This document shows positions 24,010-50,206 of a stretch of 64,000 nt of DNA, piece after piece. The stretch covers positions 62,001-126,000 of the forward strand of contig BGKB01000085.1 of assembly GCA_003116975.1 (NCBI GenBank). Reading direction: 5' to 3'. Numbering within the stretch: the first letter of the stretch is position 1; each line of letters opens with the position of its first letter. This stretch comes from Aurantiochytrium sp. KH105. Lineage: Eukaryota > Sar > Bigyra > Thraustochytrida > Thraustochytriidae. Made by a program: the position numbers and the translations under genes. The notes under the pieces are model-generated. The model was not told the origin of the DNA, made no database searches, and worked only from the letters and a program-made list of their open reading frames with translations.

Positions 24010-27000
24010 ATGGACGCCACCTCCGGCATCGGGCTCGTGCTGCAGCTTGCGCGAGACGGCGTCTCCCTTCTGGAGAGCGCCGTAGCATGCAAGCGACAGG
24101 CAGCGCGCCTCCAGCGCGCGCTCTCGCAGTTTGCCTCCCGTCTTGAGCAGCTGCGCGAGACGGACGTTAACGTAGCTCAGCTCGAAGCGGAGCTGCGCAG
24201 CCTTCTCGACCTTCTGAAGCCGTACTTTGGCGATACTGCTCGCAGCGGCCTTGCCGCTAAAACGCTCTTGCTCTTCCAGGTGAAAGCCATCCGGCAAGCA
24301 CTTGCAAAGGCGGAGCAACATCTTCAAACATGCCTTCAACTCTGTCAGCTAGATCGGCAACCTGGGCAGCTTCGGGGACTCTGGCAGGGTCGAACTGCTG
24401 CAAGGCTCGCTGAAGAGGCCAAGGACGACGAAGATGCGCGGAATGAACTGCTACGCCTACTTGAAACTTTGCAAAGGCGTGGCCTCCTCAATAGTGCTTC
24501 AGAAGAAATCCTCTCGCTTCTTCAAGAAAATCCCGACATGGACGCCGGAGCTCTCTTTGAAGGACGGCTCGGGACTCGCCGTCAGCGCCGAGCTCTGGGG
24601 CGTCTCACAACCAGTCTTACTCGGGCCGAAGAGGTCGAGGCTGCTTCGCTTGGAAGAGATCAAGTCTTCATCAAGTCTCCGTTGCAGGTTCTTGGTGAAG
24701 GCCAATTCGGCCAGGTCGTTCTCGGCGTACTTCGACGCGATGATGGATCGGAAGTCGAGACTGCAATTAAGCGCGTCAACCCTGACGGCCGCGGCATGCA
24801 GTTCTGGGAGCAGCAAGCTCTTATGCGCGAAGCCGCGAGCTTGAATGGTCTCAAGCATGCCAATATTGTCTGTCTCCTCGGAACGTGCATTCTCCAGAAC
24901 CGCTTTCATCTTGTCATGGACAAGTGCGACATGTCGTTGTACGATCTCTTGTACCAAGGGGAGGCCGACGCGATGTCAGCACTGACTCTTGACGATAAAG
25001 AAGCCATCCTGCGTGGGATCGCTCGCGGTCTAGATTACCTCCATGGCAAATTGGTGCTGCACCGTGACCTCAAGCCAGCCAATATCCTGCTCAACCGCAA
25101 CCTTGGTCTCGTCAAGCTGGCGGACTTTGGGCTCGCCACGCAGCTCGAGGCCAACAGTAGTGTCGCCAACACCGTCTCATTTGCTGGGACACCTGTCTAT
25201 ATGGCACCTGAAGTTCTGCAGGTGCCTGCCCGATGGACAACGCGCGCGGATGTCTATGCTTTCGGTATAGTCATGTGGGAGGTCTACCATGGCAGATCGC
25301 CTTTTGCACGGGTGCGCTCGATCATGGATCTACAGACCCGAGTGTTGAACGGAGAGCGACCCATCATTTCTGACGAGATTGTGGTGCGTCCGTGGGTCGT
25401 GCCTCTGATACAGCGGTGCTGGGAGCATGACCCGGAAAACCGCCCACTTGCATCTGAGCTCCTAAAAATCTTTGAAGGTCGCAAGAATGTACGTCGATCG
25501 GCACGTCTCATTCGTGGTATGGTGTCAGTGTTTTCGCGACGCCGCAGCGGCCAGAATGTCGCAGAAAGCACAAGCACCGAACTTGTGCAGAGTCTTGCAC
25601 GCGAGGTGTCACAGAAGTCAAATCGGCTTTCGCAAGCGCTCGACGCACTTCGCGAGATCCTCGAGCAGGAGTACCATGCCGGCGATGGTGACGTGGTGCG
25701 TGCAGATGTCCGGTCGCGCGGAATCATTCTAAGCATGAAACGACTTCTTGAACACGACACGGATGTAAACATCCTATCAAAAGCTCTATGGGTGCTTCGC
25801 TTCGCACTGTCTGGTGCTACGGGCAGACCGTTTCGCATGGCCGCCGTTCAATCGCATGGACTCGACAAGATTGTGGTCAACATGTTTCAGGCTTTTCGCG
25901 AGCACGAAGATCTTCAAGGAGCAGCTTGCGGGTTTGTCATGGTTGTTGCGAATGCCAGTGACGCCAACGGGGTGAGCCTTGTACAAGAAATGAAGATTGG
26001 CGATGAGATTGTCGCGGCCATGCGCGCGCATCGCACAAGCGAGACCGTGCAAACAGAGGCTTGCGGAGCACTTTGGCATCTCGCAGAGAACCTTGCTCGC
26101 AATATGGAGATTCTCGGGCAAGAGCTCAGGGTTGGCAGAGATATCGCTGGGGCGATGCGCTCGCATCCAGGGAGCCGGACCGTGCAAACGAATGCATGCG
26201 GAGCTCTTTGGGTACTCGCGATCAACAGCCACAACCGTATCATTCTTGGTCAAAGACTCAGGGTCGGCAGCTACATTGTCAGAGCCATGCGAGCTCACCG
26301 CACGAGTGTAAAGGTGCAGCAAAATGCGTGCAAAGCTCTTTGGAAGCTTGCAGGTAATACCAACAATCGCGTGATTCTTGGGCAAGAGCTAAATGCTGGT
26401 CAGGCGATCGTCGCGGCCATGCGCAGACATCCAATGAACGAAGGCGTCCAGAACTTTGCTTGCTCTGCTCTTTCTGACCTCGCAGGCAATGCCCGCAACC
26501 GTGTAATTTTGGGCCAAAAACTGAATGCCGGCGAGGTGATTATGGCTGCAATGTGCGCGCATTCCAGGAGTGCGACTGTTCGGGAGAAAGCCTGTGCAGC
26601 TCTTTCGGCTCTCGCAATCGATGGCCGCAACAAGGTAATTCTTGGGCAAGAGCTCAAGGTTGGCAAGGAGATCGCCAAGGCCATGCGCGAACATCGCACG
26701 CGCGAGGGCGTGCAGAAGAATGCGTGCCGGGCTATTGGAGCCCTTGCTTGGGATAGTCACAATCGCGAAATACTTGCTCAAGAGGTCAAGGTCGGCGAGG
26801 AGATTGTTGTGGCCATGCGCTCCCATGCTGCGAAAAAGGTCGTGCAGACGCATGCATGCGAGGCTATTTGCAGCCTTGCTTTGAGCGAGCGGAACAAGGT
26901 CATCTTGGGCCAAGAGCTCAACGTTGGCAAGTACATCGCCGAGGCCATGCGCGCGCATCGTAGGTGCGAAAGGGTTCAACAGGAAGCATGTCGTGCTCTC

Positions 27001-27408
27001 CAGATTCTTGCAATGAATGACCGCAACGAGACCATCCTTGCGCAAGAGTTCAAGGTCGGCAAGGAGATTGCGGCGGCCATGCGTGCAAATTATGGGAATG
27101 CGAGCGTTCAAGAAAACGCATGTGGAGCTCTTTGGACTCTCTCCTTCAAGAGTCGCAACAAGAGTATCCTCGGGCAAGAAGTCATGGTCGGCAAGGAGAT
27201 CGTTATGGCCATGCGCACGCACCCTTGGAGCGAAGGCTTGCAAAAGAAAGCGTGCGGCGCTCTTAAAAATCTTGCATTCGACTCAACCGTGCGATCAGTT
27301 CTTCGAAGGCAAGGCGCTGTGCAAGCAGTCCAGCGCACCTGCCAGCGCTTCCCATCGCTTCAAACTGCCAAGGAAGCGAGAGCGAGGCTGAGTCGTGGCA
27401 ACGTCTGA
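24010..27408 (+). CDS. helical-bundle / TKL protein kinase / ARM-repeat protein
   Basis: The 1132 residues comprise an all-helical N-terminus (about 1-120, reminiscent of the four-helix bundles before plant and animal MLKL-type kinases), a linker, a TKL-like Ser/Thr kinase (about 221-490), a second helical linker, and at least ten ARM-like repeats (about 655-1110). The kinase looks active: glycine loop GEGQFGQV, Lys254 in TAIK, Glu274, HRDLKPAN with Asp353, DFG 372-374, and APE 399-401. The ARM units are 44 residues each with consensus ILGQEL-x-VG-x-x-I-x-x-AMR and ACGAL-x-x-LA. The frame starts two codons upstream at GTG; the ATG at 24010 is used. It is likely a cytosolic signalling scaffold kinase. 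The MLKL resemblance rests on domain order and helicity only. Confidence 0.85.
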   Translation: MDATSGIGLVLQLARDGVSLLESAVACKRQAARLQRALSQFASRLEQLRETDVNVAQLEAELRSLLDLLKPYFGDTARSGLAAKTLLLFQVKAIRQALAKAEQHLQTCLQLCQLDRQPGQLRGLWQGRTAARLAEEAKDDEDARNELLRLLETLQRRGLLNSASEEILSLLQENPDMDAGALFEGRLGTRRQRRALGRLTTSLTRAEEVEAASLGRDQVFIKSPLQVLGEGQFGQVVLGVLRRDDGSEVETAIKRVNPDGRGMQFWEQQALMREAASLNGLKHANIVCLLGTCILQNRFHLVMDKCDMSLYDLLYQGEADAMSALTLDDKEAILRGIARGLDYLHGKLVLHRDLKPANILLNRNLGLVKLADFGLATQLEANSSVANTVSFAGTPVYMAPEVLQVPARWTTRADVYAFGIVMWEVYHGRSPFARVRSIMDLQTRVLNGERPIISDEIVVRPWVVPLIQRCWEHDPENRPLASELLKIFEGRKNVRRSARLIRGMVSVFSRRRSGQNVAESTSTELVQSLAREVSQKSNRLSQALDALREILEQEYHAGDGDVVRADVRSRGIILSMKRLLEHDTDVNILSKALWVLRFALSGATGRPFRMAAVQSHGLDKIVVNMFQAFREHEDLQGAACGFVMVVANASDANGVSLVQEMKIGDEIVAAMRAHRTSETVQTEACGALWHLAENLARNMEILGQELRVGRDIAGAMRSHPGSRTVQTNACGALWVLAINSHNRIILGQRLRVGSYIVRAMRAHRTSVKVQQNACKALWKLAGNTNNRVILGQELNAGQAIVAAMRRHPMNEGVQNFACSALSDLAGNARNRVILGQKLNAGEVIMAAMCAHSRSATVREKACAALSALAIDGRNKVILGQELKVGKEIAKAMREHRTREGVQKNACRAIGALAWDSHNREILAQEVKVGEEIVVAMRSHAAKKVVQTHACEAICSLALSERNKVILGQELNVGKYIAEAMRAHRRCERVQQEACRALQILAMNDRNETILAQEFKVGKEIAAAMRANYGNASVQENACGALWTLSFKSRNKSILGQEVMVGKEIVMAMRTHPWSEGLQKKACGALKNLAFDSTVRSVLRRQGAVQAVQRTCQRFPSLQTAKEARARLSRGNV
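25970..27290 (+). repeat. tandem 132-bp coding repeat (44-aa ARM-like units)
   Basis: Ten or more head-to-tail copies of a 132-bp unit encode the ARM array. The units share a motif near ILGQ-E-L-VG at the start and ACGAL-LA near the middle, with no indels between units. The DNA copies are diverged in sequence but exactly periodic, which implies expansion by unequal exchange under selection for repeat length. Confidence 0.85.
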
Positions 27409-32289: not shown

Positions 32290-34662
32290 TTAGCTCTCAC
32301 GCGCAGGCTCTGGCGTGCCAGTGAGCTCCTGCTCAATGTCTTTGTCAAGTCCCTCGTAGAACGACCCGAGCCGGTCAGCGGAGCTCTCAACCTGCGAAGA
32401 CGGAAAGCCATCGTTCTCCATGTTAAAGCTCAGTCCCAGAGGTCCCAAAGACGACAACGAATTCTGCGAAAGATTGAACTGCGAAATGTTGAGCATCTCT
32501 TGTGAGATGTTGAAAATTTGCGATGTGCCAGAAAAAGATCCCATCGAATCCTGCGAGAAGACAGCGTCCGGGAACTCATTGCGCGTCGAAGAAGCGGCAC
32601 GCGGACTAGGCAAGGCAGAGAGAGCGGCCGGCGCTTCGTTCTCCAACACAACGTCGTCCTCTCGCGCAGACCCATTGCGAGACATGTTTTCCTTGAGTTG
32701 GTTTGCACTGATTGCTTGATGCTGAGGAGACTCCTTGGACTGGGAACCGGGCAACAGCGACGGACCGTTATCCTTTTTCACGTCAATTGAGAGCTCCGAT
32801 TTCCGCTGCGTGCCCAGAACTTCGCTCTGTCGACTCGAATTAGCACCATCCTGCGACTCATTCCCCATCGCAAGGTCTTCCGGAGTGAGAACCTTGATGG
32901 GATTTCCAGTGACTTTCGAGTAGTACGCGCAGTAGCGCGTCATAAATTCTTCCACACAAGATATTTGGTACTTGAGCATTTGACTCGGGGTCGGCAGAGG
33001 CGGTTCCGACTCCAGCGCTTTCGGTTCTTTGTCGCTGAGAACACGTTCCGTTACGAGAGCTGCATTCGCAGGATGACCTTGCGCAGTCTTCGGAACGGGC
33101 AAGGGGTGCTGAAGATATGAGAGCTGGGCTCGTGAATTTGAGCTAGATGGTGATTTGGCGTCCGCCGCGACTGCACTCTCCTTTCTGGCCTTGCTGACTT
33201 GTCGAGGTGGCTGGAAAGCCCTGGGACGGGGCACCCTTTTCGGGACGCGTTCCGAAGCTTGGGAGTTTGCCAACGAGGACGCCGGCGCCGGCGATGGTGA
33301 TGGTGTTGGGGACGGCGAGGGCGATGACACGACAGATCCCTGACTGTTTTGAATGACGTACTTTTTGTACGTTTTCCTCGAGCTTAACGGAGCCGAACCC
33401 AGCGCGTGCTCCTCCTGCACACCCGTGCTGGAATTCCTCGATGGCGATGACGACAAAGAGTTGGCGAGGGGCGAGGCGGCGCCTTTGAAGCCGCCAGATG
33501 ATGGCTGCGTTTGCAATTGCGATTGCCTTTGCGTTTGCGATCGTGCCCGCTCCTTGGACCGTGACGTCGTTTCGAGCTGGTGTCTACTTCGCGCAGAAGG
33601 GCCCGCATCCGCTGAAGTTGCGGTCGTCTGCGCGTCTCTTACACCGTGCGGCGTGGCTGCCGTTGCCAAAGACGAAGAGGATTTGCAAAGCTTTTCAATC
33701 CAAATCCGCAATTCTTCTGCATCACGCGAACTCCTTCGCTGCGCAAATTGACGAATGTGGTGCACAAAGTTTTCTGACCAACGATAGTACGCCTTTGTTT
33801 TTGCGGTTGCTTCAAGGTGTATCTCCACGTACCCGAGTTCAACGAAAAAGGCGATCATCTCATCGAGATTTGATTCGCTCAGAGGTGCAACGAGAAGGTT
33901 AATATATTTGCTCAGCAGCTCATGGGCGCACCACGGATTGAAGGGCCCAGGCGTCGTGATTTCGTTGAAGCCAACAACCGTGAGTCTACGTGCCAAATGA
34001 ACCAAAGTTGCTTTCGAACTGCTGACAACCGCATCTTGCACCACGCCAGAGATCCCTCGAAAGGCACGACCCATACCATTCCAAACGAGCTCGTTGGTAA
34101 TCTCGTCGCGCGACACGACCTCAAATGCTCCGAGGATGCGAATGCAGGTTCGAAGTGGGTCGTTGTTGAAGCCAAAGTCCGAGACGAGCTCCTGCACGTC
34201 AAAGTGAGTCACTGTGGCCCCATAAAGAGTTGACAGCCCCCGAAGTGCTTCCGTTGGGGTTTTATTGTCGCCCAGCAGTCGAAACTCGCGATTCTCCCGT
34301 TGGAGCTGATGGGCTTGTTGTTGCATGCGCTCCTGGTGCACTTTGGCGGCTTCATTAAAAGTCTGCGCCTTTCTCTGCGGTCTTTGTCGAATCTTGGGCT
34401 TTGCTGCTTGTTGCTGCGGCGATCTTTGGCCGTCGGGGGTCCAGGAGCCTTCTTTTGACGACGACGACGACGACTTCGTTTCGAGGTCGCCCGCTGCGAC
34501 CGCTTGCTGCGCTTCCAGACCATGTGTCGCCGCTTTCGAAGGGCTTTGCGCGTGCTCAGACGTTCTCGCAGCTTTTTTCGGTGGCGTATCCCCGGTCCGC
34601 GCCGCGTCTGTCTTTGCTGCCTCGCGCGCTGCGTACGGAGAACTCCGCGGTCGCTGCGCCAT
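32290..34662 (-). CDS. putative nuclear protein with two winged-helix-like segments (E2F7/8-like?)
   Basis: The 790-residue protein is mostly disordered. Two adjacent segments have the layout of atypical E2F (E2F7/8) DNA-binding domains. Segment 1 (about 140-197) ends RTCIRILGAFEVVSRDEITNELVWNG, like the E2F recognition helix and wing (YDIVNVLESL-x-x-VSR-x-x-x-N-x-x-x-W-x-G). Segment 2 (about 214-296) begins SSSKATLVHLARRL and ends AKTKAYYRWS, like the second E2F8 domain. The hallmark RRxYDI helix is not conserved. A Gln-rich coiled stretch lies at about 100-128. The rest is Ser/Pro-rich, with C-terminal NISQ repeats. The frame extends 71 codons upstream via non-ATG codons; the ATG at 34662 (MAQRPRSSPY) is chosen. 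The E2F link is my reading and needs a profile search. Confidence 0.5.
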   Translation of the reverse strand: MAQRPRSSPYAAREAAKTDAARTGDTPPKKAARTSEHAQSPSKAATHGLEAQQAVAAGDLETKSSSSSSKEGSWTPDGQRSPQQQAAKPKIRQRPQRKAQTFNEAAKVHQERMQQQAHQLQRENREFRLLGDNKTPTEALRGLSTLYGATVTHFDVQELVSDFGFNNDPLRTCIRILGAFEVVSRDEITNELVWNGMGRAFRGISGVVQDAVVSSSKATLVHLARRLTVVGFNEITTPGPFNPWCAHELLSKYINLLVAPLSESNLDEMIAFFVELGYVEIHLEATAKTKAYYRWSENFVHHIRQFAQRRSSRDAEELRIWIEKLCKSSSSLATAATPHGVRDAQTTATSADAGPSARSRHQLETTSRSKERARSQTQRQSQLQTQPSSGGFKGAASPLANSLSSSPSRNSSTGVQEEHALGSAPLSSRKTYKKYVIQNSQGSVVSSPSPSPTPSPSPAPASSLANSQASERVPKRVPRPRAFQPPRQVSKARKESAVAADAKSPSSSNSRAQLSYLQHPLPVPKTAQGHPANAALVTERVLSDKEPKALESEPPLPTPSQMLKYQISCVEEFMTRYCAYYSKVTGNPIKVLTPEDLAMGNESQDGANSSRQSEVLGTQRKSELSIDVKKDNGPSLLPGSQSKESPQHQAISANQLKENMSRNGSAREDDVVLENEAPAALSALPSPRAASSTRNEFPDAVFSQDSMGSFSGTSQIFNISQEMLNISQFNLSQNSLSSLGPLGLSFNMENDGFPSSQVESSADRLGSFYEGLDKDIEQELTGTPEPARES

Positions 34663-35656: not shown

Positions 35657-37132
35657 ATGGACGCGACGGCGAATGCAACAATAACGAAACCCTCGGTATC
35701 ATCGACGACAGCGAGCACAGCCGCCATGTCGGGTGCATCATCAGGGACAACGACACCTCCAGGAGGCGCGAAGCGCAAACGGTCCGAACCTGGGTCCGGA
35801 TCCAGCAGCAAAGAGGCCAAAGGCGGCAAAGGCGGAAAAAAAAGTAGCTCAAACGGTGTGGCGGGTGGCAAGCATGGCAGCAAAACAGCGAATGGAACCG
35901 CGGCGGGGAGCGGCGAGGCCAACCCGAAACGAATCGCATACTTTCATGATCTCGAGCTGTCGACCTATGAGCACGGGCGCGCGCACAAGTTTCGACCATT
36001 TCGCGCAAAGCTCGCACATCAACTCATTAATGGCTACGGCGCTTACAAGGACCTGATGGAGGTCCTGCGCCCGCGACTCGTCACGCGCACAGACATGGGC
36101 CAGTACCACTCGGATGCTTACCTCGAAATCCTTGCAACGGCCCAAGCCACGGCGAATAAGCGCTTTGGTTGGGCCCAGACCGATGTCGCGGAGTCCGAGG
36201 ATCCCTTGGTGCGACGCAAGATCGAGGAAGTCTTTCAGCGCTTCAACGTTGAGCTCGACCCACAAAAGTCAGGAAACGCCATCTTTCCTGGCGTTCTTGA
36301 CTACTGCAGACTGTACACGACAGGCTCGCTCGGGTGCGCGGCACGTCTTTGTGCTGGGACTGCCGATGTCGCCATCAACTGGTACGGCGGCATGTGCCAC
36401 GCCCGGGGTTCTCGCGCGGCCGCCGGGTGCTATGTGAACGATGTTGTTCTGGCGACCCTCGAGCTCTTGAAAAGGTTCAAACGGATTCTATACATCAATT
36501 TGAGCGGGGTCCACGCCGACGCCGTGGAGGAGGCCTTTTACACAACGAGCCGGGTCATGACTCTTTCGTTTCATTTAAATGCGGAGCAGAATCCTCGCGA
36601 ATGGCCAGGCACCGGGCACGTCGACGATGTCGGCGTTGATGATGGTGAAGGTTTCGCCATAAATGTTCCCGTGGACCCAGGTATCGACGACCCAATGCTT
36701 GTGTCCACATTCACGGAGATTGTGAAGAAGGCCGCTGCTGTCTACCTCCCAGAGGCGATTGTCATGCAGTGTGGTGGTGGTTTTCTCTCGACGGAGCGCG
36801 GCGGCTGCTTCAACGTAACGGAGCAGGCTTATGCAGATTGCGTGCGCGTTGTGCGCGACCTTGACGTTCCGCTGCTCATGCTTGGAGGCAACGGCTCCAA
36901 CATGGCGCGCACGGCGCGCATGTGGGCTTTCGCCACGATGGTCCTGCTGCGCAAGGAGTCTCTTCTCAAAGACAATCTTATTCCGGACGTGGTGCCTTGC
37001 AGGTACTATTTTGAGCCAAACTACGAAATCGTGGGACCCACGGCAAAGATGCCAAACCTCAACACGGAAGAGGAGAACCTCAAGTTACGGCGTCGGGTGC
37101 TTGGTAACTTGAACCAACTCATGACCAAGTAG
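35657..37132 (+). CDS. class I HDAC homologue, predicted catalytically dead
   Basis: This 491-residue protein has an 80-residue Ser/Gly/Lys-rich N-terminus and then a full-length Rpd3/HDAC1-type domain (RIAYFHD, CYVNDVVLATLELL, EEAFYTTSRVMTLSFH, PGTG). The active site is destroyed. Human HDAC1 zinc ligands Asp176, His178 and Asp264 align with Ser283, Val285 and Gly375. The first catalytic His of GLHHAK is Cys247, and transition-state Tyr303 is Ser414. The frame is intact and codon use matches its neighbours, so this is a pseudoenzyme and not a decaying gene. Class I HDACs are nuclear corepressor subunits; a structural role is likely. The ATG at 35657 is the first in frame. Confidence 0.9.
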   Translation: MDATANATITKPSVSSTTASTAAMSGASSGTTTPPGGAKRKRSEPGSGSSSKEAKGGKGGKKSSSNGVAGGKHGSKTANGTAAGSGEANPKRIAYFHDLELSTYEHGRAHKFRPFRAKLAHQLINGYGAYKDLMEVLRPRLVTRTDMGQYHSDAYLEILATAQATANKRFGWAQTDVAESEDPLVRRKIEEVFQRFNVELDPQKSGNAIFPGVLDYCRLYTTGSLGCAARLCAGTADVAINWYGGMCHARGSRAAAGCYVNDVVLATLELLKRFKRILYINLSGVHADAVEEAFYTTSRVMTLSFHLNAEQNPREWPGTGHVDDVGVDDGEGFAINVPVDPGIDDPMLVSTFTEIVKKAAAVYLPEAIVMQCGGGFLSTERGGCFNVTEQAYADCVRVVRDLDVPLLMLGGNGSNMARTARMWAFATMVLLRKESLLKDNLIPDVVPCRYYFEPNYEIVGPTAKMPNLNTEEENLKLRRRVLGNLNQLMTK

Positions 37133-45749: not shown

Positions 45750-46194
45750 CTACTCTATACAAACAAGTGATCAGCCCCCTTGGCCTCCTCACAAAGGTCG
45801 TCTGCGTGCGGTGGCTTGACTTGGCTGGCTAGCTGGCTGGTGACGTGCGTTACTTCTTCCTCTGTGCAGTGGCGGGAGATGTTAAGATAGATAGCTAAAC
45901 TTATACTACCTGTGATTTGCATGACTTTTTGCCTAACTTGCCCCAAGTAGGTTTTTGGAAGAAATCACGAGAGCCCGTGGAAAAACCCTCCGCGTCCATT
46001 TATCCGGCGCCCGCGAAGGAAGCCGGGTCGGAGACCTTTGGGCGGGACTTTTTGCAAGGCACGAACGAAATGACGCGTGGACGGCGATTTGACCGCGGAG
46101 GAAGCCCTCGCCGTTCGGAATTTTTACGAGGCAAGCTCCCGAACTCGCGCGCTCTTGGCAAACAAACGCGAATCCACTGGCGTCCAACGCATCC

Positions 46195-46197
<3 letters not shown>

Positions 46198-46260
<63 letters not shown>
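46198..46260. repeat. (CTG)21 trinucleotide repeat
   Basis: Twenty-one uninterrupted CTG units, followed by four interrupted ones. It lies about 155 bp upstream of the chosen YeeE/YedE ATG. If translation begins at the in-frame ATG at 46070 the repeat would encode poly-Cys. In a neighbouring frame it would be poly-Ala. Confidence 0.97.
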
Positions 46261-46261
<1 letters not shown>

Positions 46262-46414
46262 CTGCTGGCTACCGCTGCTGCCGGAAAGTGGAATCACCAC
46301 GCTGGGGCCGGCCCTGCAGAGCTGTCGACAGCGACTCCATTTTTCCTAGCGGTTGCTCCATTTTTGCCCTCTTCCTTTAAGGCAAAAGCACGCCGAGGGA
46401 GCGAACGTGGCACA

Positions 46415-47845
46415 ATGCTCGAGGCAGGAGTCGAAGCCGTGCAAGTAGATGGGCAGCAAAACCGTGGCACCTCAGACACGGCAGTGGCCGCTGACGCGAT
46501 GCCTTCAAAGAACGAGGATGTGGCGGTCTACGTCGAAAGCAATCGTCAGGCGGCGCGCAGCATCGAGGATGACACGGCATCGACAGCCTTTGACGCGACC
46601 ATGGAGGATGGTGACCTCGTTGTGACGCCTCGCGTCAATAGCCTCAAGGTGGACCCGGAGGAGGCGAAATCAGGGCTCTCCATCTCAGTCGAAAAGCCGA
46701 CTTTGGTGGACTGGTTCGCAGTGCTTGCGATGAGCATCGTCATGGGCTTCATTTTTGGTTTCGCATTTGCCAAGTCACGTGTCTTTGAGCCCATGGTGAT
46801 TCGAGGGCAGTTCCTCTTTCAAAACAACATTATGATGAAGATGTTTCTTGCCGCAGTGGCCACTTCGCAAATTCTCTTTATCATCATTAATCGCACCCCG
46901 TACAAGCGGCGATTCGAGCGCGCGAGGCGGAAGCGCGAGACTGGACGAGGAATTCGCACGACGATGCTTGGCGCTTTCATTCTCGGCATGGGGCTTGCCG
47001 TTTCTGCTGCGTGTCCGGGCATGGTGCTTGCTCAGGTCGGCGCTGGTGTCGAGAACAGTGGCTACACCTTGCTCGGCGGCGTTCTCGGAGCACTTCTTTT
47101 CCAGCTTACTGATCCGCTCATCAAGCCCATTACGGATCGCTTTGGTGGTCAGAAGCTGACCATTGAGTACGTCGATGACTATCTGGGGCTTTCGTACACC
47201 AAGACGGCAGGACTTTTTGCATTTCTCATTACCCTGACAGTTATTCTCCTTGAGGTCTTCATTCCCTGGAAGCAGGATATCTACTACCAGCTGAGTCCGA
47301 ATTGCTCTGCCACAGCCTTTTGGAACTGCTACGCATGGCCGCCTTTTATTGGCGGTGTCTTCGTGGGTCTTTTGCAGCTCCCGGTGTTTTTTGTCATGGG
47401 AAGTGTCCTTGGCTCTTCGACAAGCTATGTTGTTGCCTGCGCGGGCTGGCTCCATCTTTTGCCTGAGGACTTTCGCCATCCCTTTACCTATGCCAAGCGG
47501 TTCATGTACCCGAAGCTTGACACTCACTGGCAGCTCATGTTTGTCATGTTTTCGATCCTTGGTGCCTACCTCACCGAGCTGCGCTCTGGCATGGTAGGAA
47601 CTGCGCAGGGGCTCAGCATTGGCTACTCGCTCGTGGGTGGGTTACTTTTGGTTTTTGGCGCTCGGATGGCTGGAGGCTGCACGAGCGGACATGGCGTCTC
47701 GGGCATGGCGCTACTCTCCATTCATAGCATGGCGGCTGTCGCGGCCATGTTTGCGGGCGCTATTGGCACTGGCCTCGTGCTTGAATTTATGGTCAGCACT
47801 GATAGCAACCCTTACTACATTGCACCTAATCCCATGCTCAACTGA
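46415..47845 (+). CDS. YeeE/YedE (TsuA-like) sulfur-compound transporter
   Basis: This 476-residue polytopic membrane protein has about 10 hydrophobic helices after a 95-residue acidic, cytosolic-looking N-terminus. Two family motifs with the transport cysteines are present: SAACPGM with Cys200, and FGARMAGGCTSGHG with Cys422. In bacteria these proteins take up thiosulfate by relaying it along conserved Cys residues. A plasma-membrane or organelle sulfur importer is likely here. A large extracellular loop (DIYYQLSPNCSATAFWNCYA) carries extra Cys and a sequon. The start is uncertain: the frame stays open to an ATG at 46070, but that would translate the CTG repeat as poly-Cys, so the ATG at 46415 is preferred. 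Confidence 0.85.
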   Translation: MLEAGVEAVQVDGQQNRGTSDTAVAADAMPSKNEDVAVYVESNRQAARSIEDDTASTAFDATMEDGDLVVTPRVNSLKVDPEEAKSGLSISVEKPTLVDWFAVLAMSIVMGFIFGFAFAKSRVFEPMVIRGQFLFQNNIMMKMFLAAVATSQILFIIINRTPYKRRFERARRKRETGRGIRTTMLGAFILGMGLAVSAACPGMVLAQVGAGVENSGYTLLGGVLGALLFQLTDPLIKPITDRFGGQKLTIEYVDDYLGLSYTKTAGLFAFLITLTVILLEVFIPWKQDIYYQLSPNCSATAFWNCYAWPPFIGGVFVGLLQLPVFFVMGSVLGSSTSYVVACAGWLHLLPEDFRHPFTYAKRFMYPKLDTHWQLMFVMFSILGAYLTELRSGMVGTAQGLSIGYSLVGGLLLVFGARMAGGCTSGHGVSGMALLSIHSMAAVAAMFAGAIGTGLVLEFMVSTDSNPYYIAPNPMLN

Positions 47846-48577: not shown

Positions 48578-50206
48578 ATGCTGGCAGAAGCAGGCAGCGA
48601 GACCGCAGAGCTGAGCTCCGCCGAGCTGCGCGCGCTTGTCTGCGACGCGTTGGGAAAGCTGGAAAAGGTCAAGGAGCGGAAAAAAGTCCTCATCCTGCCC
48701 CCAGATCATACGCGGCTTCACTCACGCGCCGGCGAGCTGACCCGCATGGTGTACGAGTACTATGGGAGCTACGTAGCAGACATCATGCCGGCGCTTGGCA
48801 CGCACAAGCCCATGACAGATGAACAGCTTTCTGGCATGTTTGGCACCTACATTCCAAAGTCGCTCTTTCGTGTTCACGATTGGCGCAATGACGTTGTCCA
48901 AGTGGGCGAGGTCCCTCAGAGCCTTGTGGAGTCCGCGAGCGAAGGAAAGGTCAAGGAGCCGTGGCCTGCCCAGCTCAATAAACTTGTCTGGGAGGGTGGC
49001 CACGACCTTGTCATTTCAATCGGTCAGGTTGTTCCGCACGAGGTTATGGGAATGGCCAATTACAACAAGAACCTCTTTGTCGGCGTGGGAGGGCCAGAAG
49101 CTATTCACTTGAGCCACTTTGTCGGTGCTGTTTACGGCATGGAGCGAATGATGGGGCGCGCAGACAACCCGCTGCGCAAGATTCTGGACTACGCCACGGA
49201 GCACTTTCTCAAGGGCAAGCTTCCCGTGGTGTACATGCACACTGTGATTGCCAACCAGGGCGGCGAGCTCGTCACGCGCGGTCTCTACATCAGTGAAGAG
49301 AGAGACTGCTTTGAGAAGGCGGCGGCGCTTTCCCTGCGAGTCAACTTTCAACTTCTCGATGAGCCCATCGCCAAGGTCGTCGCCTTTTTGGACCCCGACG
49401 AGTTTACTTCAACGTGGCTGGGAAACAAGTCCATTTACAGGACGCGCATGGCCATTGCAGACGGCGGCGAGCTCATTGTTCTAGCGCCTGCTGTCGAAAA
49501 GTTTGGTGAGGATGCGGAAATCGATGCTGTTATTCGTGAGCATGGGTATCGCTCGACGCCAGAGATTATGCGATTTCTGGAAAAGAGCAGGAGTCTGATG
49601 CGGAACTTGAGTGCCGCGGCGCACCTGATTCACGGTACCTCTGAAGGTCGCTTCAAGATCACGTATTGCCCAGGCAAGCTTTCCAAGGAAGAAGTTGAGT
49701 CAGTGGGTTACTCGTATGGCGATCTTGACGCTATGATGAAAAAGTACGATCCGGCCCAACTCAAGGATGGTTTCAACATGGTCGATGGCGAAAAGATCTT
49801 TTTCGTTTCCAAACCAGCGCTCGGTCTTTGGGGCTACAAGGGTCGCTTTGACCACGGCGATGATGGCGCCGCCGCGGAAGGCACAACAACAGCAGAAGGA
49901 GCAGCAGCAAAAGGAGGATTGAAAGCTGCTCAAGGTGAAGGCGCAGCGGCAGTTGCAACCAAGACTACGGAAACAGCATCCGAGGGCACGGCGGCCGGCG
50001 CCAAGGCCATCGAAGCAGCTGCGACACGATTCTCGTCATCAATGGACGCAAGCAAGCCGTCAGCAGATGCTGGTATTGGCGGTGGACCTTTTCAACACAG
50101 CTCAGGGCTTGAAGATGAAAGCGAAAAGGAGAGGCAAGAAGACGCCAAAGATGCTACTGAGCCAGCTGTCAAGAAACAAAAGACTGAGACTAGCGAACAT
50201 GACTAA
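48578..50206 (+). CDS. LarA-like (DUF2088) nickel-pincer racemase family protein
   Basis: The first 420 residues of this 542-residue protein match the bacterial LarA fold: an N-terminal DUF2088 domain and a C-terminal domain joined by helices. Key LarA residues have counterparts. The DxTR motif is Asp43-His-Thr45-Arg46, and GTH contains His76. His154, Lys164 and His180 fall exactly 20 residues before LarA His174, Lys184 (cofactor attachment) and His200 (Ni ligand). LarA racemises lactate with a Ni-pincer nucleotide; relatives act on other 2-hydroxy acids. The last 120 residues are a low-complexity Ala/Gly/Glu/Lys tail unlike bacterial members, ending in a nuclear-signal-like VKKQKTE. No LarB, LarC or LarE genes are in the window, so the cofactor source is unknown. 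Confidence 0.8.
   Translation: MLAEAGSETAELSSAELRALVCDALGKLEKVKERKKVLILPPDHTRLHSRAGELTRMVYEYYGSYVADIMPALGTHKPMTDEQLSGMFGTYIPKSLFRVHDWRNDVVQVGEVPQSLVESASEGKVKEPWPAQLNKLVWEGGHDLVISIGQVVPHEVMGMANYNKNLFVGVGGPEAIHLSHFVGAVYGMERMMGRADNPLRKILDYATEHFLKGKLPVVYMHTVIANQGGELVTRGLYISEERDCFEKAAALSLRVNFQLLDEPIAKVVAFLDPDEFTSTWLGNKSIYRTRMAIADGGELIVLAPAVEKFGEDAEIDAVIREHGYRSTPEIMRFLEKSRSLMRNLSAAAHLIHGTSEGRFKITYCPGKLSKEEVESVGYSYGDLDAMMKKYDPAQLKDGFNMVDGEKIFFVSKPALGLWGYKGRFDHGDDGAAAEGTTTAEGAAAKGGLKAAQGEGAAAVATKTTETASEGTAAGAKAIEAAATRFSSSMDASKPSADAGIGGGPFQHSSGLEDESEKERQEDAKDATEPAVKKQKTETSEHD

Follow-up and report, generated by a model that had tools for sequence, protein, structure and literature searches.

The window analysed here, the whole stretch of 64,000 nucleotides, encodes a class I histone deacetylase (HDAC) homologue in which every zinc ligand has been replaced and which remains under strong purifying selection. 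Both haplotypes of the genome carry this protein, hereafter pseudo-HDAC, with the same catalytic losses. It probably serves a silencing complex in a structural or regulatory capacity rather than as an enzyme.

A class I histone deacetylase by descent

An earlier note on this DNA had described an Rpd3/HDAC1-type protein encoded by an intact frame of 491 codons. Its coordinates and open reading frame were exact (Table 1), the frame is intact, and phmmer and Pfam both support homology across the whole domain. The best phmmer match, over residues 89-488, was HDAC2 (E 5.2e-83, 283 bits), with Rpd3 at 278 bits, HDAC1 at 275, HDAC3 at 243 and HDAC8 at 196 when the top chain for each was taken from the best 60 of 131 matches. 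The Pfam family Hist_deacetyl was recovered at 1.4e-47, and 153 of 363 positions aligned with HDAC2 were identical (42%). In a tree, pseudo-HDAC clustered with HDAC2 and with paralogues from the same genome (on contigs C80, C2 and C17) with a support of 90/90, under the level that the tool stars; as the tree contains several long branches, we took only the class I grouping from it.

An AlphaFold2 model built from 37 alignment rows reached a mean pLDDT of 75.7 and a pTM of 0.78. The low mean is mainly due to an N-terminal tail of approximately 84-88 residues; the domain is mostly above 80, with weak stretches near residues 101-120, 171-180, 311-330 and 441-470. Foldseek aligned the model with HDAC2 at a TM-score of 0.85 (by target length) and an rmsd of 4.2, and matches to HDAC2, HDAC3 and HDAC1 ranged from 0.84 to 0.86 by target length, with an rmsd of about 4. 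Pseudo-HDAC is thus predicted to retain the HDAC fold, with the qualification that the remaining alignment rows are bacterial relatives with an intact motif, so that the prediction may be biased in favour of the active fold. Homology of the domain in both sequence and fold, with class I nearest, identifies pseudo-HDAC as a class I HDAC by descent. A KRKR cluster in the tail (residues 39-42) could be a nuclear signal, and the protein is presumably nuclear.

Table 1. Features of the pseudo-HDAC gene (window positions; equivalent HDAC1 residues in parentheses)
Feature	Position	Strand	Basis or remark
Coding sequence, 491 codons and stop, one open frame	35657..37132	+	frame also on second-haplotype contig C83
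N-terminal tail, residues 1-88, low-complexity, Ser/Gly/Ala/Thr/Lys-rich	35657..35920	+	pLDDT ten-residue means 32-59; haplotype dN/dS 0.056
Class I HDAC domain, residues 89-488	35921..37120	+	phmmer against HDAC2, AlphaFold2, Foldseek
C247 H248 (H140, H141): first catalytic His lost, second kept	36395..36400	+	codons TGC CAC; alignment
A256 G257 (G149, F150): tunnel Gly and Phe lost	36422..36427	+	alignment
N281 L S283 G V285 H286 (D174 I D176 I H178 H179): relay Asp and two zinc ligands lost	36497..36514	+	codons AAT, AGC, GTC, CAC; alignment
Residues 291-302 (EEAFYTT.RVMT), conserved, with HDAC1 E185, F187, Y188 near second metal-ion region; SIN3B middle-domain contact of HDAC2 (PMC10156912)	36527..36562	+	alignment
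G375 (D264): third zinc ligand lost	36779..36781	+	codon GGT; alignment
R381 (R270): basic-patch Arg kept	36797..36799	+	alignment
S414 (Y303): transition-state Tyr lost	36896..36898	+	codon TCC; alignment

Loss of the catalytic centre

For the catalytic sites we used HDAC1 numbering. In the phmmer and MAFFT alignments, which are free of gaps within the motifs, the Asp-His-Asp zinc triad is replaced by S283, V285 and G375 (D176, H178 and D264 in HDAC1), the first histidine of the His-His pair by C247 (H140) and the transition-state tyrosine by S414 (Y303). The replacements listed in the earlier note were therefore confirmed residue by residue, including its statement that every zinc ligand is lost; to say the same of every catalytic residue would be wrong, as H141 (H248) and H179 (H286) are retained. 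Replacement extends to F150, D174, G149, G301, L271 and D99 of HDAC1, and four changes (F150G, F205W, L271G and D99G) fall in the tunnel or rim that receives acetyl-lysine. From these residues, pseudo-HDAC would be expected to lack enzyme activity. The losses could have been only apparent had intact ligands lain elsewhere in the protein, a possibility raised together with the original claim. A search of the entire protein for the patterns HH, DxDxH, GADS and GG[GA]GY found none, so a displaced motif of the kinds tried is not hidden at another place.

Residue loss exceeds chance: at the 25 columns invariant across HDAC2 and the 11 other HDAC loci found in the genome (one haplotype per locus), pseudo-HDAC has changed 12 and kept 13. 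A wider comparison used 143 columns that do not vary between HDAC2 and the three nearest paralogues; pseudo-HDAC retains 89 of them. Among these 143, changes affect 15 of 22 pocket columns and 39 of 121 columns elsewhere (Fisher P 0.003, with the pocket and ion positions as we assume them to be), indicating that the scaffold has been better kept than the catalytic centre.

A concentration of changes in the pocket, together with new pocket residues that are identical on both haplotypes, might also be expected of a neofunctionalised protein whose emptied pocket or phosphate patch senses a metabolite, inositol phosphate or peptide. We consider this unlikely, as loss of catalytic constraint would by itself explain the pocket pattern, the residues of the acetyl-lysine tunnel have been replaced, and the phosphate site lacks G27 and R306. 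Of the four HDAC1 positions that we presume to form the inositol-phosphate pocket, only R270 is kept, with G27 changed to A, K31 to R and R306 to A. Paralogues with intact catalytic residues also lack R306 (contig pair C2/C262) or G27 (C17/C58), so these changes neither show nor exclude binding by pseudo-HDAC. The class I pseudoenzyme proposed in the earlier note thus stands as regards ligand loss under selection and intact paralogues, whereas two of the roles suggested for it fared less well: an inositol-phosphate sensor is not supported in detail, and the replacements in the tunnel and rim make an acetyl-lysine reader unlikely.

Cysteine and histidine residues do persist on or next to the former motif positions, and an altered metal site with new chemistry could be imagined, for example around C247, H248, C258 and H286. 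With both carboxylate ligands and the histidine ligand gone, and with no match to the few ligand patterns tried, we regard such a site as very improbable.

Paralogues and relatives

The assembly keeps two haplotypes, and at least 12 Hist_deacetyl loci were found in 26 matches, each locus on two contigs. H140, H141, D176, H178, D264 and Y303 are all kept, as in HDAC2, at 11 of 11 other HDAC loci (one haplotype each). Three of these loci (C80/C150, C2/C262 and C17/C58) encode class I paralogues that score 543-600 bits against HDAC1/2 and have intact catalytic residues, as the earlier note had anticipated for a pseudoenzyme paralogue. Judged by their residues, these paralogues would free the organism from dependence on pseudo-HDAC for catalysis. 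A divergent fourth class I-like HDAC, on contigs C30 and C87 (L017 and L018), has a long branch and intact catalytic residues and lacks several class I surface residues.

With the pseudo-HDAC protein alone as query, no relative was found in collections of viral and genome contigs. An alignment of class I proteins as query recovered one viral and at least 49 bacterial loci, with 23-36% identity in the best segment; DxDxHHG is kept in 50 of these 50 loci and GGY in 49 of 50, in a search whose patterns favour that region. The phage and plasmid collections yielded 4 and 9 records, respectively, with weak matches.

Purifying selection between two haplotypes

A second copy of the pseudo-HDAC gene (L010) lies on contig C83, which is colinear with the window contig and 93.7% identical over 8.7 kb. 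The two proteins differ only at residues 86, 155, 194 and 277 (G86S, Y155F, Q194E and I277V), and the catalytic losses are therefore the same in both copies. Between these two haplotypes of one diploid genome we counted 28 synonymous and 4 nonsynonymous differences, for a dS of 0.083, a dN of 0.0036 and a dN/dS of 0.043 (Nei-Gojobori). A nonsynonymous share of 4/32 departs strongly from that expected from the numbers of sites (binomial P 6.7e-14). Both parts of the protein are constrained, with a dN/dS of 0.056 in the tail and 0.040 in the domain.

Each of the 12 HDAC loci found is present on both haplotypes, and dS is approximately 0.06-0.11 in 11 of the 12 pairs, which makes dN/dS testable for genes of the window. 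Class I pairs with intact residues gave values of 0.026 (C80/C150), 0.052 (C17/C58) and 0.0 (C2/C262, where the start codons differ and 124 residues are unaligned), and the divergent pair C87/C30 gave 0.09. The other seven HDAC pairs ranged from 0.014 to 0.14, except for C37/C105 at 0.52; judged from the printed proteins, this value, which we left uncorrected, looks like a start-region artefact of unlike N-terminal reading frames. Pseudo-HDAC is therefore similar to residue-intact class I proteins (0-0.05) and well under both of its neighbours, the flanking genes having dN/dS values of 0.26 and 0.24 at a dS of 0.09 and 0.08. The protein of 790 residues encoded at 32290-34662 (reverse strand), with a haplotype dN/dS of 0.26, had no Pfam match at E 0.001 in a scan of the longer frame to 34875.

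Several simultaneous substitutions in the most conserved motifs of the protein would suit a decaying gene, or an error of assembly or sequencing, but they are common to two haplotype contigs, dN/dS is 0.043, 28 of the 32 differences fall at third codon positions and there is no indel. We rejected decay or artefact, which agreement between haplotypes and purifying selection contradict and which we find scarcely credible. Loss common to both haplotypes, combined with this low ratio, instead identifies a selected pseudoenzyme, in which catalytic residues are lost and purifying selection is retained. The earlier note had read the intact frame in the same way and had looked for ligand loss with a dN/dS below 1 among orthologues; between the two haplotypes the ratio is well below 1.

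A possible seat in a Sin3-type complex

Human SIN3B docks on HDAC2 through an acidic triad (E456/D457/E461) that meets a basic patch with HDAC K32 and R271 and also contacts Y304 through its backbone; the SIN3B middle domain rests against HDAC2 at L162, E186, F188 and Y189, in the vicinity of the second ion site, and cross-links fall near Y223 (PMC10156912, in excerpt). At the seven interface positions K32, R271, L162, E186, F188, Y189 and Y223, pseudo-HDAC has R113, R381, L268, E292, F294, Y295 and F333, that is, 5 of 7 identical and 2 conservative replacements (K to R and Y to F), although these sites come from one paper and are too few to tell a retained Sin3 interface apart from overall conservation of class I proteins. 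At the gate-loop and tunnel sites (HDAC2 H29, P30, H179, F206, L272 and Y304), 5 of 6 are changed.

The genome encodes its own Sin3, a protein of 1674 residues for which a single locus was found on two contigs, and which carries E, D and E aligned to the SIN3B docking triad. An Sds3-family locus was also found. The Sin3 locus (L104, on C104) and the Sds3-family locus (L102/L103, on C113 and C104) occupy the same contig pair, about 137-138 kb apart. A search for the Rxt2 family had no match in this genome and none in the control genomes either, and is thus uninformative.

In yeast Rpd3L, one of two Rpd3 copies is occluded by Rxt2, for a purpose described as unclear (PMC10224958, in excerpt). 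One of two Clr6 copies is likewise occluded by Rxt2 in SIN3L, where the authors ask whether the blocked copy is a scaffold only (PMC10115800, in excerpt). Inactivated mouse HDAC2 still joins complexes, lowers their activity and acts dominantly (PMC4719423, in excerpt). These precedents lead us to infer that pseudo-HDAC is a catalytically dead HDAC1/2/Rpd3 paralogue that serves a Sin3-type complex as a dedicated subunit without catalytic function, a reading to which we give about an even chance. Pseudo-HDAC would occupy one HDAC seat of the corepressor complex and hold the assembly together while adding no activity, like the blocked second HDAC of the yeast and fission yeast complexes. Alternatively, it might compete with active HDAC copies and so tune the dose of deacetylation. 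Proposed by analogy, the Sin3-complex seat is a hypothesis and not a result. Retention of 89 of the 143 class I-invariant columns means that retained Sin3 contacts are partly expected from general conservation, and the genome offers at least three other class I paralogues as candidates for both seats.

Class I homology and the retained basic-patch residues R113 and R381 would also suit a scaffold in another class I setting (ELM2-SANT, NCoR-like or lineage-specific) or a free-standing decoy for regulators of HDACs. One contig carries an ELM2 match above the family cut-off (27 bits, E 6.9e-4), but this match spans only 19 of 53 positions, whereas both haplotypes show a clear Sin3; we hold this alternative to be possible if doubtful.

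Returning to the Sin3-type seat, the likeness to the occluded copies of Rpd3L and SIN3L, a proposed parallel only, lies in an HDAC unable to act within its complex. In those complexes the enzyme itself is intact and Rxt2 blocks it in trans, whereas pseudo-HDAC has itself lost the site. The parallel is also imperfect because nucleosome binding reportedly opens the blocked Rpd3 copy, which hence is more than structural; the reason for its blocking is again called unclear (PMC13183676, in excerpt). We suggest, tentatively, that this lineage may have hard-wired the asymmetry of its Sin3 complex, with a dead class I paralogue filling one seat in place of the Rxt2-blocked active copy of yeasts and with structural and catalytic jobs split between genes. 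A separate gene for the dead copy would make the role of a blocked HDAC testable by gene removal, without mutating the active HDAC.

Comparison with other HDAC-fold proteins

Pseudo-HDAC resembles the class I enzymes HDAC1/2, Rpd3 and Clr6 in whole-domain homology, predicted fold and the SIN3B-contact residues of HDAC2, and differs from them in the loss of the zinc ligands, the transition-state tyrosine and one catalytic histidine, in its replaced tunnel, in extra loops and in the low-complexity N-terminal tail. HDAC-fold pseudoenzymes are already known from class II. Class IIa HDACs, with Tyr changed to His, keep zinc (PMC12383505, in excerpt), and in HDAC10 the pseudodeacetylase domain belongs to a larger, active protein (PMC12993782, PMC11532494 and PMC5454378, in excerpt); unlike both, pseudo-HDAC is a stand-alone class I protein that has lost every zinc ligand. 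Pseudo-arginases form a clade within the same arginase-deacetylase superfamily, but on the arginase and not the deacetylase branch (PMC5454378, in excerpt). Among the matches listed for a few search wordings in openly licensed papers, none concerned a class I HDAC that is naturally dead and lacks every zinc ligand.

Other features of the window and genome

At 46070-47842 and 48578-50203 of the window (forward strand), a PF04143 sulphur transporter, presumably of the YeeE/YedE type, lies beside a protein whose N-terminal domain is of the lactate racemase type (PF09861). The two families are best known from bacteria, and horizontal transfer is possible. Elsewhere in the genome, split matches to TIGR02813 (PfaA) reach 930 bits, less than the cut-off of 1010, and matches under the cut-off also occur in 11 of 14 control genomes; they are compatible with a polyunsaturated fatty acid (PUFA) synthase of thraustochytrid type. 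The window also encodes, at 24010-27405 (forward strand), a protein kinase domain fused to LRRK2-like armadillo repeats.
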